64,000 bases of DNA from Gemmatimonadota bacterium (GTDB lineage Bacteria > Gemmatimonadota > Gemmatimonadetes > Gemmatimonadales > GWC2-71-9): the NCBI GenBank assembly GCA_003222195.1, contig QHVB01000029.1, positions 62,001-126,000 on the forward strand. Direction: 5' to 3'. A program made the position numbers and the translations under genes. The notes beneath the pieces were generated by a model. The model did no database searches. It was not told the DNA's origin and was given only the letters and a program-made list of their open reading frames with translations. Positions 9,133-31,218 of this stretch are shown piece by piece; the stretch's first letter is position 1; each line of letters opens with the position of its first letter.

Positions 9133-10347
9133 TTACTCCGGGCGGTCGAGTGGTTGCACGCGGCTCGGTCCAGGTCGTACGGCCACCCGCTCCACGCGCG
9201 TTGCACTGGCGGCGAGGATGTCGAACTCGAGACCCTTGAGCGTGAATCGCTCGCCCGGGTGAGGGATCCGGCCCAGCGCTTGAATCAGCAATCCGCCCAC
9301 AGACTGGGCGCCCCCGCCTCCGCCCCCGCCCCCACCCTCGCCTCCGCGCCCGCCGAGCGTCACACCGAGCTTTTCCGCTAGCTCGGTCGTGGCCGTGTTC
9401 CCGCTGACTTCCACGATGCGCGTCGCATGGTGCGTCGGCGCGGTCGGTTCGAACAGCTCGCTCACGAGGTCGTTGAGCAGATCCCCGAACGTGACGAGCC
9501 CCGCGGTCCCGCCGAACTCGTCCAACACCACCGCGAGGTGCTGCCCACCACGCTGCATCTCGAGCATCAGGTCCGCGGCCCGCATGGTGCCGGGAACGGT
9601 CAGCGGCGGGCGCACCTGAATCGGATCCTCGGGCTGGCGGCCCAGGAGATCCAGCGTGTGCGCGACGCCCACCACCTCGTCGAGCGAGCCGCGATAGACC
9701 GGATAGCGACTGTATCCCGACTGCTGCAGGACGTGCGCAGCTTCGGCGGTCAGGATCCCTTCGGGGAACGCGACGATCGCGGTGCGCGGGGTCATCAGCT
9801 CGCGCAGCGGGCGATCCGAGAACGCGAGGACCCCCGAGACGACCGCCATTTCGTCGGTCGCTGCCAACGTTTCGGTGCCGCCGGTCGACAACAATGCCTC
9901 GAGAGTCGTGCGCGTCGAACGCTCGCGGCGTGGAATGAACGGTGACAGCACCACACCCAGCTGGTCCATCCACGGCACGGCGCGCCCGACGAGTCCTTCT
10001 GCCCAACGGCGGCCCACGACGCGCGGCACGAGATAGGCCGCGCTGATGAACAGCGGCACCCCGACGGTGATCGTGAATATCCCCAAAAACGTCGGGGTCG
10101 TCGCCGCGAGCAACGCGGGCATCGCGCCCGCCGCGAGGAGGACGCCAAGGGTGGTGAGCATGTTCGCCGCGGCAATCGTCCGACCGGGGTTTTGAAGGAC
10201 GCCCGCCGTCGCCGGCGAGCCTCGCAACTTGTACGCCACCCAGCGAGTCAGCTCATGTTGGCTGACGGTCGCGGCCGCGACGCCGACCGCCGCCGATACA
10301 CCGGCGAGGATGAGCCCGATGAGCAGCACGACGAGCGCGACGCTCAT
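9133..10347 (-). CDS. CNNM/CorC-HlyC-type membrane protein with CBS pair (second of two)
   Basis: 404 aa. A hydrophobic N-terminus with about four membrane segments (residues 1-110, diverged DUF21-like) is followed by a CBS pair (RPLRELMTPRTAIVAFP through GGQHLAVVLDEFGGTAGLVTFGDLL) and a C-terminal CorC_HlyC domain. The family is linked to Mg2+/Co2+ efflux or its control. The linker before the CorC_HlyC domain carries an unusual glycine tract with nine consecutive Gly, encoded by a C-rich run at about 9305-9355. It is a tandem paralogue of the next gene upstream, overlapping it as ATGA, and may form a heteromer with it. Confidence 0.85.
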   Translation of the reverse strand: MSVALVVLLIGLILAGVSAAVGVAAATVSQHELTRWVAYKLRGSPATAGVLQNPGRTIAAANMLTTLGVLLAAGAMPALLAATTPTFLGIFTITVGVPLFISAAYLVPRVVGRRWAEGLVGRAVPWMDQLGVVLSPFIPRRERSTRTTLEALLSTGGTETLAATDEMAVVSGVLAFSDRPLRELMTPRTAIVAFPEGILTAEAAHVLQQSGYSRYPVYRGSLDEVVGVAHTLDLLGRQPEDPIQVRPPLTVPGTMRAADLMLEMQRGGQHLAVVLDEFGGTAGLVTFGDLLNDLVSELFEPTAPTHHATRIVEVSGNTATTELAEKLGVTLGGRGGEGGGGGGGGGAQSVGGLLIQALGRIPHPGERFTLKGLEFDILAASATRVERVAVRPGPSRVQPLDRPE

Positions 10348-11519
10348 TGCTTTTCGAAGGAGACCTGCGTGACGCGACGCTGCTCCACCCGCTCTACCAC
10401 CACGCGATAACCGTCGAGCGTCAGCTCGTCGCCGGGCCGGGGCACGCGCCCGAGGACCGAATAGACGAGCCCGCCAACCGTGGAGACCTCGGCGTGGGCG
10501 ATCGTCGTGCCAAGCGCGGCGGACAGCTCATCGAGGCTGGTCCGCCCGTCCACCCAGAGCCGACTTCCATCCTGACGGATTGTCGGCGCAGTCTCGGTAT
10601 CGTGTTCGTCGCGGATCTCGCCGACGATCTCCTCGAGGACATCTTCGCGGGTGATGAGCCCGGAGGTGCCGCCGAACTCATCGACGACGATCGCGATATG
10701 CGCTGGTGTGCCCTGAAAGTCGCGCAGCTGATTGTCGAGGGTCTTCGTCTCGGGAACGAACGCGGCCGGCCGCACCAGCGATTGCCAGCGCATGCCGGGC
10801 TCGGCGAGGCCCATCGCGATGGGCACGAGATCCTTCGCGAACACCACCCCCGCAACGTTGTCGGGAGTGCCGTCCACGACCGGCAACCGGCTGTGCTGGC
10901 TCTGGCGCAAGGCGTCCAGCACTTCGGCAGTGGATGCGGAGATATCGACGCCGGTCATGTCGAGGCGTGGCGTCATCACTTCGTCGACCGTGGTGTCCGC
11001 GAGCGTGAAGACGCCCAGCAGCATGTCGCGCTGCGCGATGCCGAGATCGGGTTGCAGCGGGCGCGGCGTGTGTACGACCGCATGCAGGCCGCGGTCCGCC
11101 CACGCGAGCAGCCAGAGCAGCGGGCCAAAGGGCGCGAGTGTCCGGCGGGTGAGCGGGAGGGCCGCGTCCGACAGCTCCGGCGCGATGCGCGCCACGCTGC
11201 GCGGCAACGCGTCGCCGACGATGAACAGCAGGAGCGTGCCGACGCTCAGCGTCACGAGCGCCTCCGCCCAGGGGCGCGTCCACCACGCCACGGCGTTCGC
11301 GGTCGCGACGGCACCGAGCACGAGGAGCGCCAGACGCGCGATGTGCAACGCGCGATGCAGCGGGACTCTGCGCTCCGCCGCGATGGGCGGCGCATCACCG
11401 AGCGTGTGGAGGGCCTCGCCGACCGCCGCTTCCTCGCCGAGCGTCAGGAGGGCCGCCCAGACGCCGGCGCTGATGCCGACGACGAGCCCGATAAGCCGCA
11501 GAGCCGCTGCGGTGAGCAT
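10344..11519 (-). CDS. CNNM/CorC-HlyC-type membrane protein with CBS pair (first of two)
   Basis: 391 aa. Hydrophobic segments cover about residues 1-150 (e.g. LALLVLGAVATANAVAWW, VGTLLLFIVGDALPR), followed by the CBS pair (DTTVDEVMTPRLDMTGVDI through HIAIVVDEFGGTSGLITREDVLEEIVGEI) and a complete CorC_HlyC domain ending in VVVERVEQRRVTQVSF. The membrane part is only weakly DUF21-like. The ATG shares a base with the ybeY stop (TGATG), matching the common bacterial order phoH, ybeY, corC. A role in Mg2+/Co2+ handling is by family inference. Confidence 0.88.
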   Translation of the reverse strand: MLTAAALRLIGLVVGISAGVWAALLTLGEEAAVGEALHTLGDAPPIAAERRVPLHRALHIARLALLVLGAVATANAVAWWTRPWAEALVTLSVGTLLLFIVGDALPRSVARIAPELSDAALPLTRRTLAPFGPLLWLLAWADRGLHAVVHTPRPLQPDLGIAQRDMLLGVFTLADTTVDEVMTPRLDMTGVDISASTAEVLDALRQSQHSRLPVVDGTPDNVAGVVFAKDLVPIAMGLAEPGMRWQSLVRPAAFVPETKTLDNQLRDFQGTPAHIAIVVDEFGGTSGLITREDVLEEIVGEIRDEHDTETAPTIRQDGSRLWVDGRTSLDELSAALGTTIAHAEVSTVGGLVYSVLGRVPRPGDELTLDGYRVVVERVEQRRVTQVSFEKQ

Positions 11520-11965
11520 CAGCGGAGGATTCGTTTGACGTAGCGTTCTTGCAGCCGCCACATCCGCGATCGGGTGCGGCCTGAGCCCTCGGGATGGTCG
11601 TAGCCGAGCACATGCAGCGTGCCATGTACCGCCAGCCGCACGAGCTCTTCACGCAATCCGGCGCGCGTGCCGTTGCGTGGGGCCTGGGGGCGGGCGCGGG
11701 GGGGAGGGGCTGCGGCCGTTGGGCAGATGTACACGTCGCCCACCACGCGGCCGTCTGGTTGCGGCAACGAGTAGGCGATCACATCGGTGAGCCCGCGGCG
11801 GCCCGTGGCTCGGGCATTGGTCCGGTGCATGGCGGCCGCGGACAAGAGCGTAATGTCCACGTGCGACGCCCTAGGCGCCCGCTCCCACGCCAGCACTCGC
11901 TGCGCGATCCGCATCAACTGGTCAGCGCGCGGTTGCCGGTTGCCAGGCCGCACTGATGCCGCCAC
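11519..11965 (-). CDS. ybeY: Endoribonuclease YbeY (rRNA maturation factor)
   Basis: Zinc-dependent RNase needed for 16S rRNA 3' maturation and ribosome quality control. The metal motif HGTLHVLGYDH (H-x3-H-x5-H) is intact and GLTDVIAYSL matches the family's TDVLSF block. Between the conserved GDVYICP and the metal motif is a Pro/Arg-rich stretch (AAAPPPRARPQAP) encoded by a G-run-rich tract, which looks longer than in relatives. The start is uncertain: the ATG used gives 148 aa with a normal N-terminal length but overlaps the upstream gene by 44 bp. A GTG at 11953 or an ATG at 11914 are alternatives. Confidence 0.92.
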   Translation of the reverse strand: MAASVRPGNRQPRADQLMRIAQRVLAWERAPRASHVDITLLSAAAMHRTNARATGRRGLTDVIAYSLPQPDGRVVGDVYICPTAAAPPPRARPQAPRNGTRAGLREELVRLAVHGTLHVLGYDHPEGSGRTRSRMWRLQERYVKRILR

Positions 11966-14096
11966 TGGACTCCGGATAATCGATGCGATTGTGGTACATC
12001 CCGCTCAACACCACGAGGAACGCCGACTTCACCTGCTCCATCTGTTGCAGCGTGAGCGGGGCTTGGTCCAGCTGGCCGGCGTTGACCTTGGTACGGACGA
12101 TGTGATTGATCGCCTCCTCGATTTTCTGCGGCGTCAGATCTTCGAGCACGCGCAGCGCCGCCTCCACGGAATCGGCGATCATCGAGATGGCGGTTTCCAT
12201 CGAGCGCGGCTTGGGGCCGGGATAGGTGAAGTCCTCGATGTTCTTGGGCTGCCCGCCATCGATCTTTTTGGCCTTGTCGAGGAAGTACGTGATTTCGGTC
12301 GTCCCATGATGCTCGGGGATGAAGGCGGCGACCGCGTCCGGCAAATCGGCCTCGGCGGCGAGCGCCAGGCCGTCGGTGACGTGCGCCTTGATGATCTGCG
12401 CCGACTGCAGCGGCTTCAGCCGATCGTGCGGGTTGTTGCCCGGGATCTGATTCTCGACGAAGTACTGCGGGTTCTTGACCTTCCCGATGTCGTGGTAATA
12501 GCACCCCACGCGTCCCAGCAGCCCGTTCGCCCCGATGCGGTTGCACGCCGCTTCGACCAGGTTCGCCATCGCAACACTGTGCGCGTATGTGCCCGGCGCC
12601 TCGACCGACAGCCGCCGGAGCAGAGGCCGGCTCGGGTCCGACAGCTCGAGCAGCGTGAGATCGGTCGTGATGTGCGTGACCGACTCCGCCACGGGCAGCA
12701 GGAAGAACGTGAGACCGGCCGACACCAGCCCGTTCAGGGCGCCCCAGAAGCCGCGCAGACCGATCTCTTCTATGGACCACCCGCTCGCGAGGCCGAGGGC
12801 GAGCGCCCCGGTCAGGTACCCCGCCGCGATAATGAGCACCGGCGCGTAGAAATTGCTGCGGCTGCGTAGCGTCTTCACCGACAGGGCGGCCGTGACGCCG
12901 CCCACGACGCACAGGAATGTCGCGGGCACGTCGTGGAAGACCGGTTGCAGCCCGACCACTACCGCCAGAATCATCGCTGCGATCATCGAGACGCGCCCGT
13001 TGAACAGCACCGTCATCATCATGGCCAGGAACGGCATGAAGAGGATCTCCGGGTGCGCCGGATAGGACCTCGCGACCAACCCCGCCTGGGTCAGCAAAAT
13101 CGCGAAGAGCGCGCCGATCAGGCCGACTTGCCGGAGGTCGCGGTAGGTCTCGCGGCGATAGAAGACCATCAGGACCCAGAAGATCGCAATGATGAGCGAA
13201 TCACGAAGGAGCGGGCCCACGACGCCACGAATCGAATAGGTGGTCGCGGCGCCGCGTCGCAGCAGCTCCTGATGCAGGGTGACGAGCCGCTCGTGCGCCT
13301 CGTTCGTCACGACCTCGTTCGCCGCGACGATCCGGTCGCCGGCACGCACGATGTATTTGCTCGGATCGACGCTCCCCCGCAGCTCGTTGCGGCGCCGCTC
13401 CGTTTCGAGCGGTTTCGGAATCAGGGTTGGCCGGAAAAACTGCCGCACGAGCTTGAGGTACAGCACGTCACCGACGCTCGAGCCGGCGTCGGGATGGAGC
13501 TGTTTGGCGCGGTTCAGGTACTGAGCGAAGGTGAGCACTTGATCCCGCAGCACCGATGACTCGGTCGAGCCCCGCCGCACGATCAGCTCGCGCGATTGCT
13601 CTCCCTGCAGGACGCCGGGGCCGGTGACGCCCTGCGCCAGCGTGCGGTCGAAGAGCCGCACCAGCGCCTGTTGCATCGCCCGCCGCTTGCCACCCTTGCT
13701 GAGGTACGCCGCTTCCTGTGGGGTAAGGGGAACGCCGTAGTCTCTGGCAGCGCGAATGATCGCCTGGGGACCCTGGTCGCCGGCCGCATCCACCGAGCTG
13801 AAGAAGGCCGCTAGCGTCGTCACGGTGCTGTCATACGCGCGCTGCCGGAACTCGTAGATCGGCTTGGCCGATGCCGCGAGCTCTTCGGCCTCGCGCTGCA
13901 GCTCATCTTCCGACTTGTTCACGACGAAGTTGAAAGGCGCGACGATTTCCTTGTCGGACCGGGCGCCGGGCTCGAGCAGCGGCGCGACGTCGGCGCTGCC
14001 CGACGGGAACGCGACATGCGCGACCAGCGCGAGCGCCGGGACCCACACCCAGCGCACCAGGTGATAGCGCACCTTCTCCTGCGTGGGGAGTTTCAT
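11922..14096 (-). CDS. 7TMR-HDED / 7TM / HD-domain phosphodiesterase (PgpH-like)
   Basis: 724-aa membrane protein. One N-terminal TM helix is followed by a large extracytoplasmic 7TMR-HDED region (about residues 35-270), a seven-helix membrane block (about 285-480) and a cytoplasmic HD hydrolase domain with CYYHDIGKVKNPQYF and AAFIPEHHGTTEITYF. Listeria PgpH with this architecture hydrolyses c-di-AMP, and the substrate here is inferred. ATG begins one base after the phoH stop. It lies in the conserved phoH / 7TM-HD / ybeY arrangement, tying it to RNA and ribosome maintenance genes. Confidence 0.9.
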   Translation of the reverse strand: MKLPTQEKVRYHLVRWVWVPALALVAHVAFPSGSADVAPLLEPGARSDKEIVAPFNFVVNKSEDELQREAEELAASAKPIYEFRQRAYDSTVTTLAAFFSSVDAAGDQGPQAIIRAARDYGVPLTPQEAAYLSKGGKRRAMQQALVRLFDRTLAQGVTGPGVLQGEQSRELIVRRGSTESSVLRDQVLTFAQYLNRAKQLHPDAGSSVGDVLYLKLVRQFFRPTLIPKPLETERRRNELRGSVDPSKYIVRAGDRIVAANEVVTNEAHERLVTLHQELLRRGAATTYSIRGVVGPLLRDSLIIAIFWVLMVFYRRETYRDLRQVGLIGALFAILLTQAGLVARSYPAHPEILFMPFLAMMMTVLFNGRVSMIAAMILAVVVGLQPVFHDVPATFLCVVGGVTAALSVKTLRSRSNFYAPVLIIAAGYLTGALALGLASGWSIEEIGLRGFWGALNGLVSAGLTFFLLPVAESVTHITTDLTLLELSDPSRPLLRRLSVEAPGTYAHSVAMANLVEAACNRIGANGLLGRVGCYYHDIGKVKNPQYFVENQIPGNNPHDRLKPLQSAQIIKAHVTDGLALAAEADLPDAVAAFIPEHHGTTEITYFLDKAKKIDGGQPKNIEDFTYPGPKPRSMETAISMIADSVEAALRVLEDLTPQKIEEAINHIVRTKVNAGQLDQAPLTLQQMEQVKSAFLVVLSGMYHNRIDYPESSGGISAAWQPATAR

Positions 14097-14097
14097 C

Positions 14098-15052
<955 letters not shown>

Positions 15053-22113: not shown

Positions 22114-22528
22114 GTTTCCCTTCCAGCTCGGCGATTTCCCGCTGCCAGAAATCGCGGTTGGGCAGCTCGGGATGGGGGATCGTCAGCCCCGGCTCCCGCA
22201 CGGAGCGCTTGCCGTAGCGAACGATGTCGAGATCGAGGGTCCGCGGTCCCCACCGCTCGCCGCGTTCCCTGCCCCGCTCCGCCTCGATCGCGAGACAATA
22301 CGCCAGCAGCTCGGCCGGGCTCAACGACGTTTCGAGCACCACCATCTGGTTCAAATAGGGCGGCTGCGCAATCGGTCCGATCGGGGCCGTCTCCTCGACG
22401 CGCGATGCGGCGACGAGCCGCGTGCCGGGGAGCGCGCCGAGCCGGGACCGCGCGTGAGCCAGGTGCGCCGCGCGATCGCCTACGTTGGACCCGAGCGCCA
22501 CGTAGGCTCTTTCAATTGACGTTGGCAA
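22106..22528 (-). CDS. folK: 6-hydroxymethyl-dihydropterin pyrophosphokinase
   Basis: HPPK of folate synthesis, 140 aa. Motifs: [15 protein letters not shown] at the start, the pterin/ATP signature [15 protein letters not shown] and [12 protein letters not shown]. It starts 17 bp within the 3' end of the chemoreceptor-like gene and overlaps panB at its end. Confidence 0.96.
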
Positions 22529-24599
22529 AACCTCGCGTCAAGTCGCGCAACATCGTCGCCACCTGCTCCAGGTCACGCGTCGCGCGCTCGAGATCGGTGA
22601 GCCCTTCGGCGGCCTGCACGGCGCGGGTCGCCACGTCGTCGGCCTGGGCGCGGTTCTGCCCGGCGATGCTGGCCACCGCGTTGATGCGCTCGCGCAGGCG
22701 CGCGAACGCCTGATTCTGCTCGCCCGCGGCGGCGGTGATGCGTCCCGCGTGGGCGGTCGCTTCCGCCGTCGCGACGACGATAGCGTCCAGGGCTTCGAGT
22801 GCCGCGGCCGACAGCTCCTCCACGTCGCCGACGTTCACTTGGCCGCGGCGCATTTGCTCCACGACTTCGCCGACTTGGGTGTGAATGTCCTGAACCAGCT
22901 CACCGGCCTCGGCCGCGGCGTTGGCGCTCTGCTCGGCCAGCCGGCGCACCTCGTCGGCGACGACGGCGAATCCCTTGCCGTGCTTGCCGGCGCGTGCGGC
23001 CTCGATCGCCGCGTTCAGCGAGAGGAGATTGGTCATGTCGGCGAGCTCGCGGATCGACGCAATGAACCCCGTAATCCGCCGGCTCGTCTGACCGAGCTGC
23101 TGCACCTTGCTCGAGCTTTCCCCCACGAACGCCTTGAGCGCGACCAGACGCTCGATGGCTTCGCGAATCTGCGTGCGGTTGCGGCTGGCGACGTCGCTCG
23201 CCGCCGTCGAAGCACGGGCCGCGCCGGCGCCGTCATCGGACACGCGGCGCGAGACCTGGGACAGGCTTTCGGTCGCCTCGAGGCCGCCGGAGACCTCGCC
23301 TTCCTCGCGACGCACCCCTTCCCGAATGACCCCGGTCGATTGCGCCACCGCCGCCGCCATGCGTTTCAACGCCTCGGCCGTCTGGGCGATGGTGGCGAGC
23401 TGGCGGGTCATGCGCTCGACCGTTTCGACGAGCGGCCGGCGCAAGTCCGTGATGTGCACGGCGGTGGCGAGCTGGCTCGCGAAGGTCGTGATCGTGAGGA
23501 TGTCCTGGCGCCGGTAGCAGTGCTTCTTGTGATGTTCCAGCTCCAACGTCCCGATGATCTGATCGCCGAACTTGAGCGGGACGATCACGAGGCTCTGCAC
23601 GTCGAGCGGCGCGTCCGCGACGCGCTTGTCACGTGTGACATCGTCGATCACAACGGTCTCGCCGTGTGTCGCCACCTCGTTGCGGAGGTGCTTCGTGTCT
23701 GGCGAGGGTTCACCGCGCCCCTCCCGCCCCCGTGCCGAGCGGTGCACGAGGGTCAGTTGGCCATCGTGGAGGCGGTAGATACGGAAGTCGCCCCAATCCA
23801 CGAGGCGGTTGGCGAGGCGCTCGATTCGCTGGAACGAGTCTTCGAGGCTGATGTTGGCTGTGATGACGGCTTCCACGGCGTGGATCTTGTTCAGCTCTTC
23901 GGCGGAGATCGCCTCTTCGATCATCTGCTTCAGCAGCAGGCCGAGGAACGTGAGCACGAGGCCCACGAGGAGCCAGGCGCCCAACGACCACGCGACCACC
24001 GCGCCGACGAAAATGGTCGCGGCGAGGAGCGTCGCGGCGTACGCGATCACCTCGTAGCGCACGATCATCAGCCGTTCAGCCGGCTCGAGCTTCGCGCGGA
24101 TGATGAGCGTGAAGTAGAAGAGCACGCGGCCGAACATGAAATACGCCAGCGCGTACCCCGCAAGCGCTGGCAGGAGCTCGATGCTCAGAACCGGCGCGCC
24201 GTTCGGCATGTCGAGCCAGCTCAATGACGCGGCGTACACGCCGTAGGCCGCGACCAGCGTGATGACTTCACGGCCGAGATTGATCCAGGCAACGCGCAGC
24301 GGCTTGCGTTGCCACACCGAATCGGTGACGATCGTGGCCCCGGCGATGGCCAGCGCAGTCGCGGGCACGCCGACGAGCAGGCTGCCGGCGAGCCCCACGA
24401 GGGCGGTCTGGGTGAGATAGGAGTACTTGCTCAGAGGGACTGACAAGCCGCGCAGCGCCACGGCGGCGCCGAACAGCACGATGATCTCGGGGATCTGCCC
24501 CAACCAGCGGTGATCGGCGCCGAGGACGGCGATGAGCAGCGCAATGCCGGCCCACGCAAGGGCCCGGCTGTAGACCCCGACGGAGCGCGCGACCGTCAT
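22512..24599 (-). CDS. Methyl-accepting chemotaxis-like protein: membrane region, GAF, MCP signalling domain
   Basis: 695 aa. The N-terminal 230 residues hold about six or seven hydrophobic helices (MASE-like, no periplasmic sensor domain). A GAF domain follows (about 250-400, e.g. [43 protein letters not shown]), then a cytoplasmic MCP coiled coil (about 410-690). The hairpin tip is recognisable: [19 protein letters not shown] then [17 protein letters not shown]. No HAMP domain is evident. The start overlaps the trpA stop as ATGA. No CheA, CheW, CheR or flagellar genes are in the window, so it may signal to a non-flagellar pathway. Confidence 0.9.
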
Positions 24600-25378
24600 C
24601 CGTGCACCGCCGCAGCCAGCTCCCGGGTCAACTGCTGCACACCCGAGAGGCCGTCCCTCGCCAGCGCATCCATCAATGCGCTTCCCACCACCACCCCGTC
24701 TGCTGAACGCGCGGCCGCGGCCGCCTGCGCCGGCGTGCCGATCCCGAATCCAACGGCAACCGGGAGTCGCGTGGTGGCGCGAACGCGCTGCACCTGCGCG
24801 TCAAGGTCGGGTGGCACCGTGTCGCGTGCGCCCGTGACGCCGAGTCGGGAGATCAGGTACACGAAGCCGCTGGCGCCGGCCAGGGCGCCCCTGAGCCGGG
24901 CATCGTCGGTGGTGGGAGCGACCAGGCGAATGAGCGCCAGCGAACTGCCCGTGACCGCCTGTTCGACGGCAGGATCGGCGCCGGCGGGGAGGTCGGTGAG
25001 CAACACGCCGGCTGCCCCTGCCTCGCGCGCGTCCTGCGCAAAGCGCTGCGCACCGTAGGAGAGCACCGGATTCAGATACGTCATGATGATGACGGGCACG
25101 GGAGCGTCGGCCTTGCGGACCAATTCCAGCACGCGCGGGACGGTCATTCCGTGCTCCAGCGCCGTCTGCGTCGTGCGTTGAATCGTAGGACCGTCGGCCA
25201 ACGGATCCGAAAACGGTACACCCACTTCGATGAAGTCCGCGCCGGCGCTCGCGACGGACTGGATCGCGTCGAGCGACGCAGCGAAGGTGGGAAAACCGGC
25301 GGTCAGGTACGGAATCAGCGCTCGCGATTTGCCGAGCGCCCGCCACCGCGCCGCAATGGGGGACGCATTCTCAGACAA
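24596..25378 (-). CDS. trpA: Tryptophan synthase alpha subunit
   Basis: Cleaves indole-3-glycerol phosphate to indole and GAP. It is a 260-aa TIM barrel. Catalytic Glu and Asp are in [19 protein letters not shown], with [26 protein letters not shown] for phosphate binding. The likely start is TTG, overlapping the HD-GYP-like gene by 8 bp. It is separated from trpB by two signalling-type genes, an unusual order since trpBA are normally adjacent. Confidence 0.97.
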
Positions 25379-26843
25379 AGTAGTCGCTAACGTTGATCCC
25401 GTATTTGACAGGGTCGGTGACCTTGACGATGGTGCGAGGATAACTCCCGTTCGCGTCCTTCTCCGAGAGATCGACGATCGTTCCGGGGGTCAGCAGCGCG
25501 CCGTCCGGCGTCGTGACCAGGCGCACCACCGGCCGGTGGACGTGAGCAACGTCGGGGTTCGCGGTGTGCACGAGCGCCACTTCGTAGGTGTCGAGAATGA
25601 CGCAGGTGCCTACCGGGTAAATCCCGATCAGGTTGATAAAGGCCTTCACCACGACCGCGTCATACCCGCGTCGCGGATTCTCCCACATCTCTTTGAGCAC
25701 TTGATCCGGCTGGATCGGCACGGTCTGATACACACGGCGGCTCGTCGCCGCGTCGAACCCGTCGGCCACCGCGATGACCTTGGAGTAGATCGAGAGTTGC
25801 CGGTTGCGGATCGACTTCGGATAACCGGTCAGGTCGATTTTCATGTGGTGCTCGTAGGCCACGACCATGCCGCGGTACGGGATTTCGCCATAGCCGCGCA
25901 GCCCAAACAGCGTCAACACCCCCAGCCAGGGATGGGCCTGCATGATCCGCCATTCCTCCTCGGTCAGGCCCCCTTCCTTATTGAGGACTTCCAGCGGCAC
26001 CCGTGACTTCCCGACGTCGTGAAACAGCGCCGCCATGCCGAGGTCGTAGAGCTGCAGCTTGGTGAGCCCCAGCTTGCGTCCCAGCGCCACGGAGAAGATG
26101 CAGACGTTCACCGAGTGCGTGAACGTGTATTCGTCGTAATCGCGCAGCGTGGTCAGCCCGACCAGCGACGATTCGTTGTTCAACACCTGATCCACGATCG
26201 CCTGCACCGCGCGCTTCACCTTCTTCACGTTGGCGGTCCGACCCATGCGGATGCTGTTGATGACCTCCTTGGTCACCGCCACGGAGCGCGCGTACGTCCG
26301 CTTCGCCGCTTCCTTCTGCCGTTCTTCCTCCTCGACATCCTCTTCGACTTCGAGCGGTGGCTCGACGCTGATGTGCGACACGCCACCATCGCTCAGCTTC
26401 TGCGACAGCTCGAACAGCTTGTTGGGGTTGGCTTCTTTCGCGGCGTACGCGAGGAGGAGCGAGACGAACACCTGCAGCTGCTTGCGATCCACCCCCTCGT
26501 CGAGCCGCATCGCGCCGATGCCGCACTGCTGCAGGACGTTCAGGATGTGCGAGAAGGAGGCGTAGTTGTCGAGGTCGAGCCGCAGCCGCGTCGAGTTGAC
26601 GAAAATGAATTCGCCCTGGAGCCGGACTTCGAGCTCGCGTTCGACGTCCAGGAGCTGCTTCGTCGTCGCGGCGAGGTCGTCCAGCGCCTTCTGCACCTGC
26701 TGGTTCTCGATCGGATAGAGTTTGAGCGACCGGAACGCCGTGTAGAGGACGACGAGGAAGTCGCGGCCGGCGTGGCGTAGGAAGCCGTCCGTCGTCTGGA
26801 CGGTTTCCAGCATCGAGGGCCGTTTGTCGCCGGGCGCGGTCAC
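25371..26843 (-). CDS. Divergent HD-GYP-domain protein with a shared N-terminal domain
   Basis: 490 aa. Residues about 30-135 form an N-terminal domain (LYPIENQQVQKALDDL, LQGEFIFVNSTRLRLD, GVDRKQLQVFVSLL) that resembles the N-terminus of the HEAT gene just upstream. An acidic linker (EVEEDVEEEERQKE) follows, then an HD-GYP-like domain: THSVNV, FHDVGK (His275-Asp276), AHPWLG (His304), EHHMKIDLTGYP (331-342) and ADGFDAATSRRVY. The signature HHExxDGxGYP is altered to HHMKIDLTGYP, so c-di-GMP hydrolysis is uncertain. The C-terminus VKAFINLIGIYPVGTCV is typical of the subfamily. GTG start overlaps the HEAT gene stop (GTGA). Confidence 0.85.
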   Translation of the reverse strand: MTAPGDKRPSMLETVQTTDGFLRHAGRDFLVVLYTAFRSLKLYPIENQQVQKALDDLAATTKQLLDVERELEVRLQGEFIFVNSTRLRLDLDNYASFSHILNVLQQCGIGAMRLDEGVDRKQLQVFVSLLLAYAAKEANPNKLFELSQKLSDGGVSHISVEPPLEVEEDVEEEERQKEAAKRTYARSVAVTKEVINSIRMGRTANVKKVKRAVQAIVDQVLNNESSLVGLTTLRDYDEYTFTHSVNVCIFSVALGRKLGLTKLQLYDLGMAALFHDVGKSRVPLEVLNKEGGLTEEEWRIMQAHPWLGVLTLFGLRGYGEIPYRGMVVAYEHHMKIDLTGYPKSIRNRQLSIYSKVIAVADGFDAATSRRVYQTVPIQPDQVLKEMWENPRRGYDAVVVKAFINLIGIYPVGTCVILDTYEVALVHTANPDVAHVHRPVVRLVTTPDGALLTPGTIVDLSEKDANGSYPRTIVKVTDPVKYGINVSDYFV

Positions 26844-28579
26844 GATCCCGCTCCCACATCGCGCAGCGCGCGGCTCACGGCGTTGCGCACGAGTGGTTCC
26901 TTATCCTGCGTCACCTTCTGCAAAACCTCGCGCGCCGCGGGTGTCCGAATCTTGCCAAGTGCCATCGCCGCGCAGGCGCGTGTCTCGGGATGCCCCTTGC
27001 GGCCGAGGAGACCGCCCTTCGCGAGGAGCAGCTTCTCGAGCGTAGGAATCCCCGCCTCGCCCGCCAGGGCGCCATACGCCTCGAAGAACGCCATCTTCTC
27101 CGTGAGATCGGCGTCCTTGAGCTTGTTGCCCGTCACCGCCGCCTCGATGCGCGGAAAGGCGTTGCGATGGCCGCGTTGGCCGAGGAACTTGACCGCCGCA
27201 ATGCGGACGTCGCGTTCCTGATCGTCAATCGCCTTCTCCAGCAGCCGCATTGCGCTGGGGCTTCCGATCGTCGTAAGCGCTTCCACGACAGCCAGCTTCA
27301 GCTCCCGTTCACCGCGCTCGAGCAGCGGACCCATGCCGTCCGGTGCACCCGGCAGCTTGAGCCGGCCGGCGAGCCGCACCATCTCCAGCTGCACGGCCGG
27401 ATCGGTGCTTGCCAGTGCCTTGAGTACTTCCGCCGCGTTGGCCTGCGCCAGTCGTTCCGCGGCGTTCTGCACGAGGCTCTTGACGCGCTCGTTCGTCAGC
27501 TTCGGCAACCATCCCATCAGCGTCCCGAGCGCGTCCGCTCGCAGCTCGCCGAACAGGTCGCTCAGCTCTTCCTCGGTCGGGTGGCTGGTCGCCTCATCGA
27601 GCGACTGCAGCAGCTGCGCCAGCGCGTCGGGCTGGGACAGTCGCGCCGGCAGCGCTTCGAGGATCTGCCGATGTTCCGGAATCAGCTCGCGCGCCCGCTG
27701 CAGGACGACTTTGCAGTCCCGCAGGATCAATGCGACGGAGCGGAAGTCGCCGGCGCCCAGCAGATACGGAATGAAGTTTTCGACGATGGAGATCAACTCG
27801 GCGCGGACCGTGCCGTAGGTCTGCAGTTCGAGCAGATCGAACAACATCGCAAGCACGTTGCCGCGCAGGTCCTGCGCGTATTCGCGCTCGACTTCCTTGT
27901 GGAGATACTCGATCTCCTTGTCGTCGAGGAAATACAGTGTCGTATCGAAGTCGTCGATCGACACCAGTCCTTCGCGCTTGGGCGGCGCTTCTTCCTCTAC
28001 CTGTCGGCGGACCGTCGTGGTATCAGGGGAGCCGCCATCGCCGCCCGGGGTCCCGCCGCCGCCGCCGCCGAGCGTGGGCGCGCCCTTCTCGGTGCGCTCG
28101 ATCGGCACCGCGTTCTCGCTCGCGAGCTCGCGGAAGGTATAGGTGACGAACTGGAAGTCTTCCGCCCAGAGCAACGTCAGCAGGTCATCGGGCGCGTCGG
28201 CCTGCAGGTTCTTCGCCTGCTGCAACACCGACAGAAAGCGCACGATCTCGGCGTCCTCGATGCCGGGCTTGAACGTGAGCGAGCGCACGCCGTCCTTGTA
28301 CAGCGTCCACGCAATGCTCTCGTTGCGCTGATCCTGGCTGTAGATCGCGTTATCCTCCCAGCGAATGTCCGTTTCGCCGATGTCGAAGATCAGATCGTCC
28401 GTCGCCTGCCAGATCTGACGGAAGGCGGTGCGGATGTTGTCGACGGCGCGCTGGTAAACGGGATTGTTCGGCAGGTACAACTGCGTCGCCCGCATCCCCT
28501 TGCTGATGACTTGCATCAGCTCCTCCACCTGCGACGGCGGGAGGGCCAGCTCGGGGATTTGCGAAGCGGGATTCGTCAG
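26840..28579 (-). CDS. HEAT-repeat protein with N-terminal domain shared with HD-GYP neighbour
   Basis: About 579 aa if it begins at a CTG that overlaps the trpB stop as CTGA (start [20 protein letters not shown]). The first ATG/GTG/TTG in frame is a GTG at 28528, which removes 17 residues. The N-terminal domain ([49 protein letters not shown]) parallels that of the downstream HD-GYP-like protein. A Gly-rich linker ([13 protein letters not shown]) leads into alpha-helical HEAT/armadillo repeats in the last 220 residues (e.g. [38 protein letters not shown]). No enzymatic motif is seen. It is likely a scaffold or partner of the HD-GYP-like protein. Confidence 0.8.
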
Positions 28580-29754
28580 AGCGTTGCTCCCGTAAGCTCG
28601 GCGACCATGGCGACGTCCTTGTCGCCACGGCCGCTCAGGTTGATCAGGATGAGTTCGTCAGAGGCTCGCTTCGCCTGCATGACCCAGGCGATCGCGTGGG
28701 CGCTCTCGAGCGCCGGGAGGATGCCTTCCAAACGCGAGAGGGCGGCGAAGGCGTCCAGAGCCTCCCGGTCCGTCACGGCTTCATACAATACGCGACCCGT
28801 GTCCTTCAGGTAAGCGTGTTCGGGGCCCACACCGGGATAATCGAGACCGGCCGAGACGCTATGCGCCGGTTGCACCTGTCCATCGGCATTCTGCAACAGG
28901 TAGCTCATGCTGCCGTGAAACACGCCGGGACGACCGGCGCCAAGCGTGGCGGCATGCTTCTGTGTCTGCATTCCCTCCCCCGCCGCTTCGACACCCACGA
29001 GCTTCACCGATTTGTCGTTCAGAAACGCGGTGAAGATGCCCATCGCGTTCGACCCGCCGCCGACGCATGCGACCACCATGCTCGGCAGCCGGCCAACCTG
29101 CTCCAGCATCTGGGCGCGCGCCTCCCGCCCGATCACTGATTGGAAGTCGCGGACCAGGCGCGGGAACGGGTCGGGTCCCACGACGGAGCCGATGATATAG
29201 TGCGTCGACGTGACGTTCGAGACCCAGTCGCGCAGCGCCTCGTTCGTGGCGTCCTTCAAAGTGCGCGTGCCGGACGTGACGGGCACGACCGTCGCCCCCA
29301 TGAGCTCCATGCGGTAGACGTTGAGCCGCTGCCGCCGCATGTCCTCCTCGCCCATGTACACCACGCACTCGAGCCCAAACCGCGCACAAACCGTGGCGGT
29401 CGCGACGCCGTGCTGGCCGGCACCGGTTTCCGCGATAATGCGCCGCTTGCTCATCCGCTGGGCGAGCAGCACCTGCCCCAAGGTGTTGTTGATCTTGTGG
29501 GCGCCGGTATGGTTCAAGTCTTCTCGTTTCAGCAGGATTTGGGCGCCTACCTGCGCGGAAAGGCGCGGAACGGCGCTGATGGGCGTGGGCCGCCCGACAT
29601 AGTTCTTGAGGAGCGCTTCGAGCTCGGCCCAGAATCGCGGATCGTTGCGAGCCGCGTCGTAGACGCTGGCCAGCTCCTCGAGCGCGTGCATCAGCGTCTC
29701 GGGGACATACCGGCCACCGTAGGGACCGAACCGACCGAGCTGCGTCGCGGTCAT
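28576..29754 (-). CDS. trpB: Tryptophan synthase beta subunit
   Basis: PLP enzyme joining indole and serine, 392 aa. The PLP lysine lies in [13 protein letters not shown], the phosphate loop is [10 protein letters not shown], and [12 protein letters not shown] is conserved. ATG overlaps the trpC stop (ATGA). It is followed by the HEAT gene rather than trpA. Confidence 0.98.
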
Positions 29755-30551
29755 CGTCTGGCTCGCCGCTCCACCCCGGTGAGTGCCTTGACGGCCTTCT
29801 CAGGATCGCGCTGTCGCGCCACGCTCGTCCCCACGAGGACGAAATCGGCTCCCGCGTTTGCGAGCCGCTCCACATCCTCGCGCGTCTCGATCCCGCTCTC
29901 AGCCACGACGGTCACCTCCGGCGGTATGCGTCGCAGGGTTTCCTCGGCGGCGCGTAGATCAACGACAAAGGTGTCGAGATCGCGCGCGTTCACGCCGACA
30001 ACGCCGGGGCCGGCAGCGAGCGCGGCGTCGAGCTCACGAGGCGCATGGACTTCGATCAGCGGCATCATCCCTCGCTGCCGTACCGCGCCGGCGAGCCCCT
30101 CGAGCTGTGCGGGCGTCAGGATACGAGCAATCAGCAACACCGCGCTCGCTCCAGCTGCCCGAGCCTCGGAAATCTGGAGCTCGTCGATCACAAAGTCCTT
30201 TCGGAGGACCGGGAGGGCGATGCTGGCTGCGACGCGCCTGAGGTCCTCAATCGATCCTCCAAAGTGCGCTTCGTCCGTAAGCACCGATACCGCGACGGCG
30301 CCACCGCGCTCGTATGCGGCGGCGTGAGCGACGGGGTCGAGGTCCTCCCGAATCGCGCCCTGGGACGGGGAGCGGCGTTTGACCTCGGCGATCACACCGA
30401 CGCTCGCTCCAGGTGTCGGAAATGGGTGGGGCGCCGGAGCCGCAGAGGCCGCCCGCTCCAACTCGGCCGCCCTCCTACCAAGAGTCGCGACGCGCGCCCG
30501 AGTTACGCCCAGGATAGCATCCAGCGAGGCGGCAGGCGGGTTATCTGGCAT
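29751..30551 (-). CDS. trpC: Indole-3-glycerol phosphate synthase
   Basis: Ring-closing decarboxylase of tryptophan synthesis, 266 aa. Landmarks: [13 protein letters not shown] (catalytic Lys), [35 protein letters not shown] and [12 protein letters not shown]. It is the first gene of the minus-strand trp/pan operon and diverges from lexA across 58 bp. The upstream-most trp gene, trpD, lies beyond lexA. Confidence 0.97.
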
Positions 30552-30557
30552 CCTTGC

Positions 30558-30602
30558 GTTCGGTCGTTATTCGGGTAGATTATGGTTCGGTAAATCTTCG
30601 GG
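30558..30602 (+). promoter_or_regulatory. Tandem direct-repeat operator candidate before lexA
   Basis: Two copies of an 18-base element, GTTCGGT-N5-TTCGGG, at 30558-30575 and 30585-30602. Each contains GTTC-N7-NTTC, one base off the GTTC-N7-GTTC LexA box of Alphaproteobacteria. The copies are 27 bp apart in the lexA/trpC gap, and the second ends 7 bases before the lexA ATG and overlaps its GGGAG ribosome site. TTGCGT (30554) and TAGATT (30576) could serve as -35 and -10. Autoregulation by LexA is the natural inference. Confidence 0.5.
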
Positions 30603-30609
30603 AGCCAGT

Positions 30610-31218
30610 ATGCCGGTCACGCGGCGCCAGCGCGAGATCCTCGATTACATCTCGAAACACCTCGAGGAAAAGGGGTACGCCCCGAGCTTCGAGGAGATCG
30701 CCCGCCAGTTCGGGTTCCAATCGCTGGCCACGGTCCACGAACACCTCACCAATCTCGAGCGCAAAGGGTACATCCGGCGAACTCACAACGAGAGCCGGGC
30801 GATCGAAATCGTGCCGCCCAAAGGTCAGACTGGCGCCACAGAGCTGCCGCTGCTGGGCCTGGTCGCGGCCGGGACGCCGATCGAGGCGGTGACGGGTGAC
30901 GAGACGATCGCGGTCCCGGACGAGCTGCTGCCGCGGCGCGGACGCAGCTACGTCCTCAAGGTGCGTGGTGACTCGATGATCGACGAGCACATCAAGGATG
31001 GCGATTACGTCGTCGTTCAGGAGCGTAATCAGGCCGACCCCGGCCAGACCGTGATCGCACTGGTCCATGGAGAGGGCGCCACGGTGAAACGCTTCTACCG
31101 CGAACCCGGTGGGTGGATCAGGCTGCAGCCGGCCAACGATGCGCTCCAGCCGCTGCGTCTCAACGAGCGGGATGTCATCGTCCAGGGAGTGGTGGTCGGG
31201 GTCATCCGGAAATACTAG
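30610..31218 (+). CDS. lexA: LexA SOS repressor
   Basis: 202-aa repressor and self-cleaving S24 protease. Winged helix at the N-terminus (TRRQREILDYISKHLEEKGYAPSFEEIARQFGF), an Ala-Gly cleavage site in LVAAGTPIEA, catalytic Ser in RGDSMIDEHIKDGD and catalytic Lys in ATVKRFYRE. ATG chosen with GGGAG upstream. The frame is open further but non-coding before it. Its 3' end overlaps the end of trpD by 17 bp. It sits between trpD and trpC in opposite orientation. Confidence 0.97.
   Translation: MPVTRRQREILDYISKHLEEKGYAPSFEEIARQFGFQSLATVHEHLTNLERKGYIRRTHNESRAIEIVPPKGQTGATELPLLGLVAAGTPIEAVTGDETIAVPDELLPRRGRSYVLKVRGDSMIDEHIKDGDYVVVQERNQADPGQTVIALVHGEGATVKRFYREPGGWIRLQPANDALQPLRLNERDVIVQGVVVGVIRKY

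Follow-up and report, generated by a model that had tools for sequence, protein, structure and literature searches.

We analysed a window of 64,000 nucleotides from a Gemmatimonadota bacterium (NCBI GenBank assembly GCA_003222195.1, contig QHVB01000029.1, positions 62,001 to 126,000 of the forward strand), in which two overlapping genes between trpB and trpA encode a HEAT-repeat protein and an HD-GYP protein. As judged from their sequence profiles, the two proteins begin with homologous domains (here called the N-domain), and the two-gene arrangement recurs in several bacterial phyla. The reading that we put forward, with about even confidence, is a two-subunit module in which a cyclic-dinucleotide phosphodiesterase would be held by a scaffold partner through pairing of the N-domains. 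The points that we counted for such a complex are the homology of the N-domains, the fixed order and spacing of the genes, their spread over phyla, the catalytic residues, the co-evolution of the two proteins, the doubling of the N-domain in other proteins and its fusion to GGDEF and PilZ. The parts of the module are as follows, in coordinates of the window and with approximate residue ranges of the domains.

26840 to 28579, minus strand: HEAT-repeat partner gene, 579 amino acids (aa) from CTG 28579 or 562 aa from GTG 28528.
28130 to 28540, minus strand: predicted N-domain of the HEAT protein, residues 14-150 (profile-profile match to the HD N-terminus, unified N-domain profile, element order in the AlphaFold2 (AF2) model).
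27548 to 27967, minus strand: helical middle region of the HEAT protein, residues 205-344 (helices of the AF2 model).
26843 to 27547, minus strand: HEAT-repeat alpha-solenoid, residues 345-579 (Pfam HEAT_2, E 1.3e-24).
25371 to 26843, minus strand: HD-GYP gene, 490 aa, GTG start at 26843 and stop at 25371.
26361 to 26780, minus strand: predicted N-domain of the HD protein, residues 22-161 (profile-profile match, unified profile, AF2 model).
25623 to 26306, minus strand: HD-GYP catalytic domain, residues 180-407 (Pfam HD_5, E 4.3e-21).
25371 to 25622, minus strand: strand-rich C-terminal tail of the HD protein, residues 408-490 (DSSP of the AF2 model).

The initial annotation, made from the letters of the window, had placed two consecutive overlapping genes here, with HEAT and HD-GYP output halves and with N-termini that line up by eye. 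Both genes lie where it had put them, overlapping by 4 bp, and the Pfam matches above agree with the two output halves. As for the N-termini, single-sequence BLASTP gives a weak alignment (19% identity over 127 columns, E 0.042 in one comparison). Profiles of the two N-termini were aligned with hhalign at a probability of 97.1% and E 6.3e-11 over 107 columns, in the register that had been read by eye; the reversed run gave 96.7% and E 4.3e-10, the full-length profiles of the two proteins 93.6% and E 2.1e-7, and eight controls, run against other domains from the same two proteins, gave probabilities of at most 1.3%. Each N-terminal profile held 73 sequences, from the window and 72 of the 73 fetched loci, including five paralogous loci outside trp. 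The homology of the two domains is thus evident from comparison of profiles, for which BLASTP with single sequences would not have been sufficient. In the AF2 models (mean predicted local distance difference test 83.2 for the HD protein, from 13 sequences, and 75.5 for the HEAT protein, from 11 sequences) both N-domains share the order helix-helix-strands-helix-strand-helix-helix-strand (HD residues 18-161; HEAT residues 15-149). This likeness of fold is one of predicted element order, and at this level there is no sign of two different N-terminal folds. When the 38 N-domains that make up the unified profile (A5) were scanned singly, any one Pfam or NCBIfam family matched two of them at most, so that by these scans the N-domain, with about 130 residues, has no model in either database. 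The PDB sequence matches of the N-domain profile below 1e-5 were 9l08 ('Cytochrome c555 trimer') and 4zv6/5bop ('Octarellin V.1') only; they cover 34-35 positions and we set them aside as chance or composition.

Within Gemmatimonadota the pair was surveyed in 200 genomes (in what follows, G denotes a surveyed genome and L a fetched locus). Matches to the HEAT protein occur in 142 of them, and matches to the HD protein, generic HD-GYP proteins included, in 156. Among the matches listed, the HEAT gene lies directly upstream on the same strand at 136 of 140 HD places, in 131 genomes. The 140 places are the 150 listed HD rows minus the 10 weakest, of which eight align with the HD part alone, starting no earlier than residue 164, and two (G139:C26 and G078:C11; L144 and L145) are divergent pairs. 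A place in G182 with no listed HEAT neighbour begins 44 bases from the contig end, and at G054:C10 and G054:C73 (L142, L143) a divergent partner with N-domain and HEAT repeats was found with profiles. HEAT rows that lack an HD row are fragments of high-scoring segment pairs, contig-edge cases, two remnants (L150, L152) and other HEAT proteins. The gap between the two genes over 72 loci, counted from starts chosen by script, is exactly -4 bp in 42, another overlap in 14, 0-25 bp in 12 and larger in 4. The tree distances of the HEAT and HD proteins correlate with r 0.94, and with a partial correlation of 0.86 after removing the trpB distance (55 trp-linked loci); this correlation was reached by none of 999 label permutations, whose maximum was 0.43. 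The two proteins therefore co-evolve beyond the trpB background. Duplication of paralogous loci as whole pairs is not claimed, since midpoint-rooted trees gave no clean common clade for them. A duplicated N-terminal domain and a lasting partnership of the two genes are both supported, and homologues in related genomes are found as neighbours. With the unified profile, the N-domain was matched in 68 of 101 genomes of this phylum, again among the matches listed.

Two further observations concern unusual copies in this phylum. In L150 (G164) and in L152 (G133) a single open frame joins the HEAT-protein N-domain to the C-terminal end of the HD protein, while the HD-GYP core and most of the HEAT region are missing; these frames are either deletion remnants or assembly artefacts. 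The genome of the window itself has a second gene with N-domain and HD-GYP (G000:C95:136201-137392; about 6226-7392 of L277), and at the expected place of a partner upstream of it the assembly reads N.

The module is also found outside Gemmatimonadota, in records named Acidobacteria, Deltaproteobacteria, Nitrospirae, Omnitrophota, Phycisphaerales and Eisenbacteria. A contig scan of named genomes with a linker-plus-HD query, taken over the best 80 of 139 confirmed loci, gave 12 loci in which the HD-GYP protein carries the N-domain. Eleven of these have an upstream partner and one (L167) stands alone. The partners were seen in Deltaproteobacteria (L157), Acidobacteria (L159), Nitrospirae (L160, L178), Omnitrophota (L161, L163, L164, L166, with N-domain), Phycisphaerales (L165, with N-domain), Eisenbacteria (L154, a HEAT protein whose N-terminus lies beyond the contig) and Gemmatimonadetes (L155, a HEAT protein split across two frames). 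In 10 of these genomes the unified profile gave 36 matches, of which 34 fall, as counted by eye, into 17 same-strand pairs; G202, G203 and G209 have three pairs each, and G201, G202 and G206 also occur in the phylum surveys. These surveys cover samples of phyla named by the record titles of their seeds, and a pair was defined as two same-strand N-domain matches 0.9-3 kb apart. The Deltaproteobacteria-record phylum gave matches in 54 of 118 genomes (140 matches, 51 pairs in 41 genomes), the Acidobacteria-record phylum in 31 of 99 (72 matches, 25 pairs in 18 genomes) and the Phycisphaerales-record phylum in 36 of 99 (85 matches, 15 pairs in 10 genomes).

Thirty hand-picked pairs out of the 91 in these surveys were read gene by gene. 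In the first 20, the downstream gene has N-domain and HD-GYP in every case, and the upstream gene has the N-domain in all 20 and HEAT repeats by profile in 18. The profile of the HEAT-protein middle region matches 6 of these 20 upstream partners, and that of the HD-protein tail 14 of the 20 HD partners. The 10 further pairs came from the Phycisphaerales-record phylum and were chosen partly for long frames; their HD-GYP domain lies in the downstream frame in eight, in the next frame in one and is cut by the contig end in one, and HEAT repeats were found in only four upstream members. Overall, HD-GYP is in the downstream gene itself in 28 of 30 pairs and HEAT repeats are upstream in 22 of 30. 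The idea that HEAT is the universal partner is not borne out, in view of the remaining eight upstream members, mostly from the Phycisphaerales-record phylum (L264, L271, L278, L282, two in L283, L285 and L286), in which neither profile nor Pfam found HEAT repeats. The constant core is an N-domain partner followed by an N-domain-HD-GYP protein, and HEAT is common in the partner without being general. No Pfam family at cut-off was found in the C-terminal halves of the partners in L278, L282, L283, L285, L286, L264 and L271, and these proteins are possibly a second, unrecognised type of partner. Just past the HD gene, on the opposite strand, five of the Deltaproteobacteria-record pairs (L254-L257, L261) have a frame of 192-232 aa with HEAT repeats.

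The N-domain also occurs outside such pairs. Of 33 unpaired N-domain frames fetched, 21 were scanned with Pfam. Eight have GGDEF above cut-off, all of them with HEAT_2 and seven with AAA_16, also above the cut-offs, and three have HEAT, cNMP_binding and PilZ. One, in L295, is a chain of 1305 aa with the N-domain, FHA, DUF4388, HD (21.9 bits against a cut-off of 22; 3e-16 with our own HD profile) and HEAT by profile. The remaining proteins have a receiver with SpoIIE (1/21), HEAT only (3/21), a sub-threshold GGDEF-like region (3/21) or nothing (2/21). Two tandem N-domains were found in six GGDEF forms (L235, L236, L287, L289, L291, L292). In L289, a 1768-aa frame (9461-14764, plus strand) combines a protein kinase, GGDEF, AAA_16, two N-domains and HEAT, and two more long frames of that locus have two N-domains each. 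In cyclic di-GMP (c-di-GMP) signalling the usual domain for synthesis is GGDEF, for hydrolysis HD-GYP and for reception PilZ. Since the N-domain is found beside all three, it sits in a c-di-GMP network. The domain tends to occur in twos, although N-domain-HEAT frames without this type of HD-GYP gene in the fetched stretch, seen at 8 of 20 unpaired loci fetched from the first phylum survey (L245-L248, L250-L253), speak against a strict rule.

HD-GYP enzymes are common, and most of the inputs known for them are receiver, PAS and GAF domains. In the protein of the window the HD_5 profile scores 75.8 bits against a cut-off of 27.2. Within Pfam, no Response_reg match at E up to 1 was found in it, as an RpfG-type protein would have, and HDOD stays at 12.9 bits against a cut-off of 22.9. 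The metal ligands of PmGH (4mcw) map to H243, H275, D276, H304, H332, H333 and D361. Invariant in all 73 family members are H243, H275, D276, K279, H304, H332, H333 and G340-Y341-P342; D361 is conserved in 69, with E in the other 4, and D237, which corresponds to PmGH D183, is D in 70. The window protein thus keeps seven of the eight metal ligands of PmGH, together with the equivalents of D183, K225 and GYP. It differs from PmGH in a Tyr at the position of E185, shared by 67 of the 73 family members, and in having an unnamed N-domain as its input instead of GAF, PAS or a receiver. The carboxylate of the trinuclear E/D-T-G subgroup was not found, and by its residues the protein belongs to the Y/F subgroup of Bellini et al. 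Passages of that paper (PMC4159591) describe Y/F at E185 as one half of the HD-GYP family, predict a binuclear centre for it, and report that PmGH E185A still hydrolyses, less well. Of the 35 HD sequences taken from distant loci, 33 have the whole set of equivalents of H189, HD, K225, H250 and HH. The word 'divergent', which the initial annotation had used of the HD-GYP domain, does not hold in the sense of degenerate, as the metal-binding and catalytic residues are kept and the third-metal glutamate is replaced as in the Y/F subfamily.

The solved structures matched by the HD model include Bd1817 of Bdellovibrio, which is the closest (3tm8/3tmb; Z 25.0, root-mean-square deviation 3.0, 224 aligned residues), DvhD, a PAS/HD-GYP c-di-GMP receptor of Desulfovibrio (9rbz; Z 19.2), and PmGH (Z 18.7). 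The match to Bd1817 spans model residues 171-407 only, with the N-domain outside. According to parts of the DvhD paper (PMC13090378), a helical stalk of that protein forms dimers, and it has lost the HD and HH metal ligands (SQ; Met/Asn) and does not hydrolyse. In contrast to DvhD, the family of the window keeps its metal ligands, with HD and HH present in 73 of 73. Because the metal ligands and the catalytic Lys are kept, the Y/F subgroup is a known one and DvhD is a case in which HD and HH were lost, the HD-GYP protein is expected from its residues to hydrolyse a cyclic dinucleotide, most likely c-di-GMP. What sets it apart from other HD-GYP phosphodiesterases, in Gemmatimonadota, is the nearly constant HEAT neighbour. 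The HEAT protein scores 86.8 bits with HEAT_2 (cut-off 27.7), its AF2 model has a solenoid, and that model matches HEAT/ARM solenoids with a best Z of 18.2. Its C-terminal half resembles HEAT scaffolds such as alphaRep and the PP2A A-subunit in sequence and predicted fold, and the protein differs from them in carrying the N-domain and in being encoded by the first gene of an HD-GYP pair. It stays under the cut-offs of NCBIfam HEAT families such as NblB and CpcE. A role in anti-phage defence was considered and dropped, as PADLOC gave only weak matches on the HEAT and HD stretches (best E 6e-8, to a HEAT-ARM model).

Since both proteins start with the same domain, they probably act as one complex. 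Most likely the N-domains would pair with each other, upstream subunit with HD subunit. The HEAT solenoid of the upstream subunit would then serve as a scaffold or targeting arm that binds a target or site, the HD-GYP subunit would remove the cyclic dinucleotide at that site, and the partner would place or switch the phosphodiesterase locally. Here we infer the physical heteromerisation of the N-domains, the substrate, the direction of regulation and the input signal. A wider and more doubtful idea, which we offer tentatively, is that the N-domain might be a dedicated pairing code that works in twos, either partner with HD-GYP or in tandem, and wires c-di-GMP synthesis (GGDEF-AAA-N-domain-HEAT), breakdown (N-domain-HD-GYP) and reception (N-domain-HEAT-cNMP-PilZ) to HEAT scaffolds.

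Several of the observations weigh against a complex of a phosphodiesterase with a HEAT scaffold. One HD gene of Gemmatimonadota (G194:C50, L149) is a true exception to the pairing, since its contig continues for 0.9 kb upstream and no HEAT match lies there, and outside this phylum the partners in L159, L161, L163 and L166 are below the Pfam HEAT cut-off, in addition to the eight HEAT-less partners above. Unpaired N-domain matches number 38 of 140, 22 of 72 and 55 of 85 in the Deltaproteobacteria-, Acidobacteria- and Phycisphaerales-record surveys, some of them in tandem in one frame. The sequences of the unified profile are all pair members, which may favour the detection of pairs, and the fold searches with the two models bear on the output halves, the hits of the HD model going to its HD domain and those of the HEAT model to solenoids. 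Among the 35 distant HD sequences, several of the catalytic residues are lost in L272, L270 differs at HD and Lys in a provisional alignment, and L264 keeps the metal and Lys equivalents without GYP. Bd1817, the closest solved relative, is called inactive with a closed lid in passages of Bellini et al. (PMC4159591). The first alternative is that the two genes are co-regulated and form no complex, the N-domain being a ligand-binding or homodimerising input used by each protein separately and the HEAT protein having targets of its own. Unpaired N-domain proteins with other outputs (GGDEF-AAA, cNMP-PilZ, receiver-SpoIIE) would fit this, as would the eight loci with N-domain and HEAT that have no such HD-GYP gene in the fetched stretch. 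However, an independent input would not need a pair kept across several phyla in fixed order and tight spacing, co-evolution beyond trpB, or a domain doubled in several single chains, and we consider this alternative rather unlikely.

The catalytic state and the substrate leave room for two further alternatives. The HD-GYP protein could be a degenerate receptor like DvhD that does not hydrolyse, for which DvhD itself is a precedent (PMC13090378); Bd1817, described as inactive (PMC4159591), is the closest solved structure, and the third-metal glutamate is absent. We do not favour this and think it improbable: the two motifs that DvhD lost are invariant in the 73 family members, the H189, HD, Lys, H250 and HH equivalents are all kept in 33 of the 35 distant sequences, and a Tyr or Phe in place of E185 is the mark of one half of the HD-GYP family, the E185A enzyme of PmGH being still active at a lower level (PMC4159591). 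Slightly less probable again is that the same complex acts on another substrate (3',3'-cGAMP, c-di-AMP, a linear dinucleotide or another phosphoester) and stands outside c-di-GMP signalling. The solved HD-domain relatives include V-cGAP3 (5z7c, named 3'3'-cGAMP-specific) and PgpH (with c-di-AMP), and the residues around GYP read EHHMKxDLTGYP against EHHERWDGTGYP in PmGH; on the other side, GGDEF (8/21) and PilZ (3/21) in the unpaired N-domain proteins point to c-di-GMP.

A last alternative, that the pair is functionally part of the trp operon as a tryptophan- or indole-linked regulator, is suggested by its position, which is bounded by the following genes of the window, both of them context rather than parts of the module.

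28576 to 29754, minus strand: trpB, upstream neighbour (Pfam PALP).
24596 to 25378, minus strand: trpA, downstream neighbour (Pfam Trp_syntA).

The analysis of trp neighbours covers Gemmatimonadota loci. Of the 73 fetched loci, 53, in many families of the phylum, have the order trpB-HEAT-HD-trpA, two are cut by a contig edge, 13 are without trp and five are paralogous pairs elsewhere. The 13 loci have no trp gene in the fetched stretch and still show lexA or fol/pan neighbours beside the pair. Eight genomes with the pair (G036, G037, G040, G042, G103, G108, G118, G120) have a different trpB (56-62% identity) on another contig, and none of the six that were mapped has trp at the pair; in these eight genomes the native trp genes appear to have been replaced. 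The pair is present without a proper trpB match in G027 (E 1.8e-5), G049 (E 1.6e-28, 35% identity) and G096 (E 1e-4), and a good trpB is present in other genomes, among them G016, G044, G052 and G057, where neither pair protein is matched. The pair has an old and stable place in trp, and neither of the two depends on the other. Because the pair persists at sites from which trp has gone, we reject a functional link; the regulator alternative is already largely refuted and very improbable. A metabolic meaning, which the initial annotation had considered, is not supported in the sense of a tryptophan link. The position between the two trp genes looks like an accident in an ancestral operon of Gemmatimonadota.

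By Pfam scan the order of genes on the minus strand of the window is trpC (29751-30551, Pfam IGPS), trpB, the HEAT gene, the HD-GYP gene, trpA, a GAF/MCP-signal gene, folK, panB and panC. The HD and trpA genes share 8 bp. The first possible start of the HEAT frame is a CTG that shares bases with the stop codon of trpB (CTGA), and the next one is GTG 28528. A CTG start was picked by script in 5 of 73 HEAT genes, all near relatives of the window, and is possible for the HEAT gene here. In 22 of 53 trp-linked loci the gene with GAF and MCP-signal domains (22512-24599, minus strand) comes directly after trpA, and in L087, L092 and L093, three of the 13 loci that lack trp, it directly follows the HD gene. 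Its product may belong with the signalling pair rather than with trp. The gene lexA (30379-31218, plus strand; Pfam LexA_DNA_bind and Peptidase_S24) lies between trpD and trpC on the opposite strand, as it does in all 48 mapped loci that have both trpD and trpC.

No description of the pair was found among the titles and abstract starts listed by searches of the open PubMed Central literature. A domain so far without a Pfam or NCBIfam model that links an HD-GYP enzyme with a scaffold-like protein in a fixed unit of two genes, and turns up again next to GGDEF and PilZ, would give a handle on local c-di-GMP signalling in little-studied phyla (Gemmatimonadota, Acidobacteria, Planctomycetes, Omnitrophota). 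Genomes with several pairs, such as the three with three pairs each, offer testable predictions on the choice of partner. If the idea of a pairing code is true, it would mean a local c-di-GMP signalling complex, so far unnamed, in several bacterial phyla.

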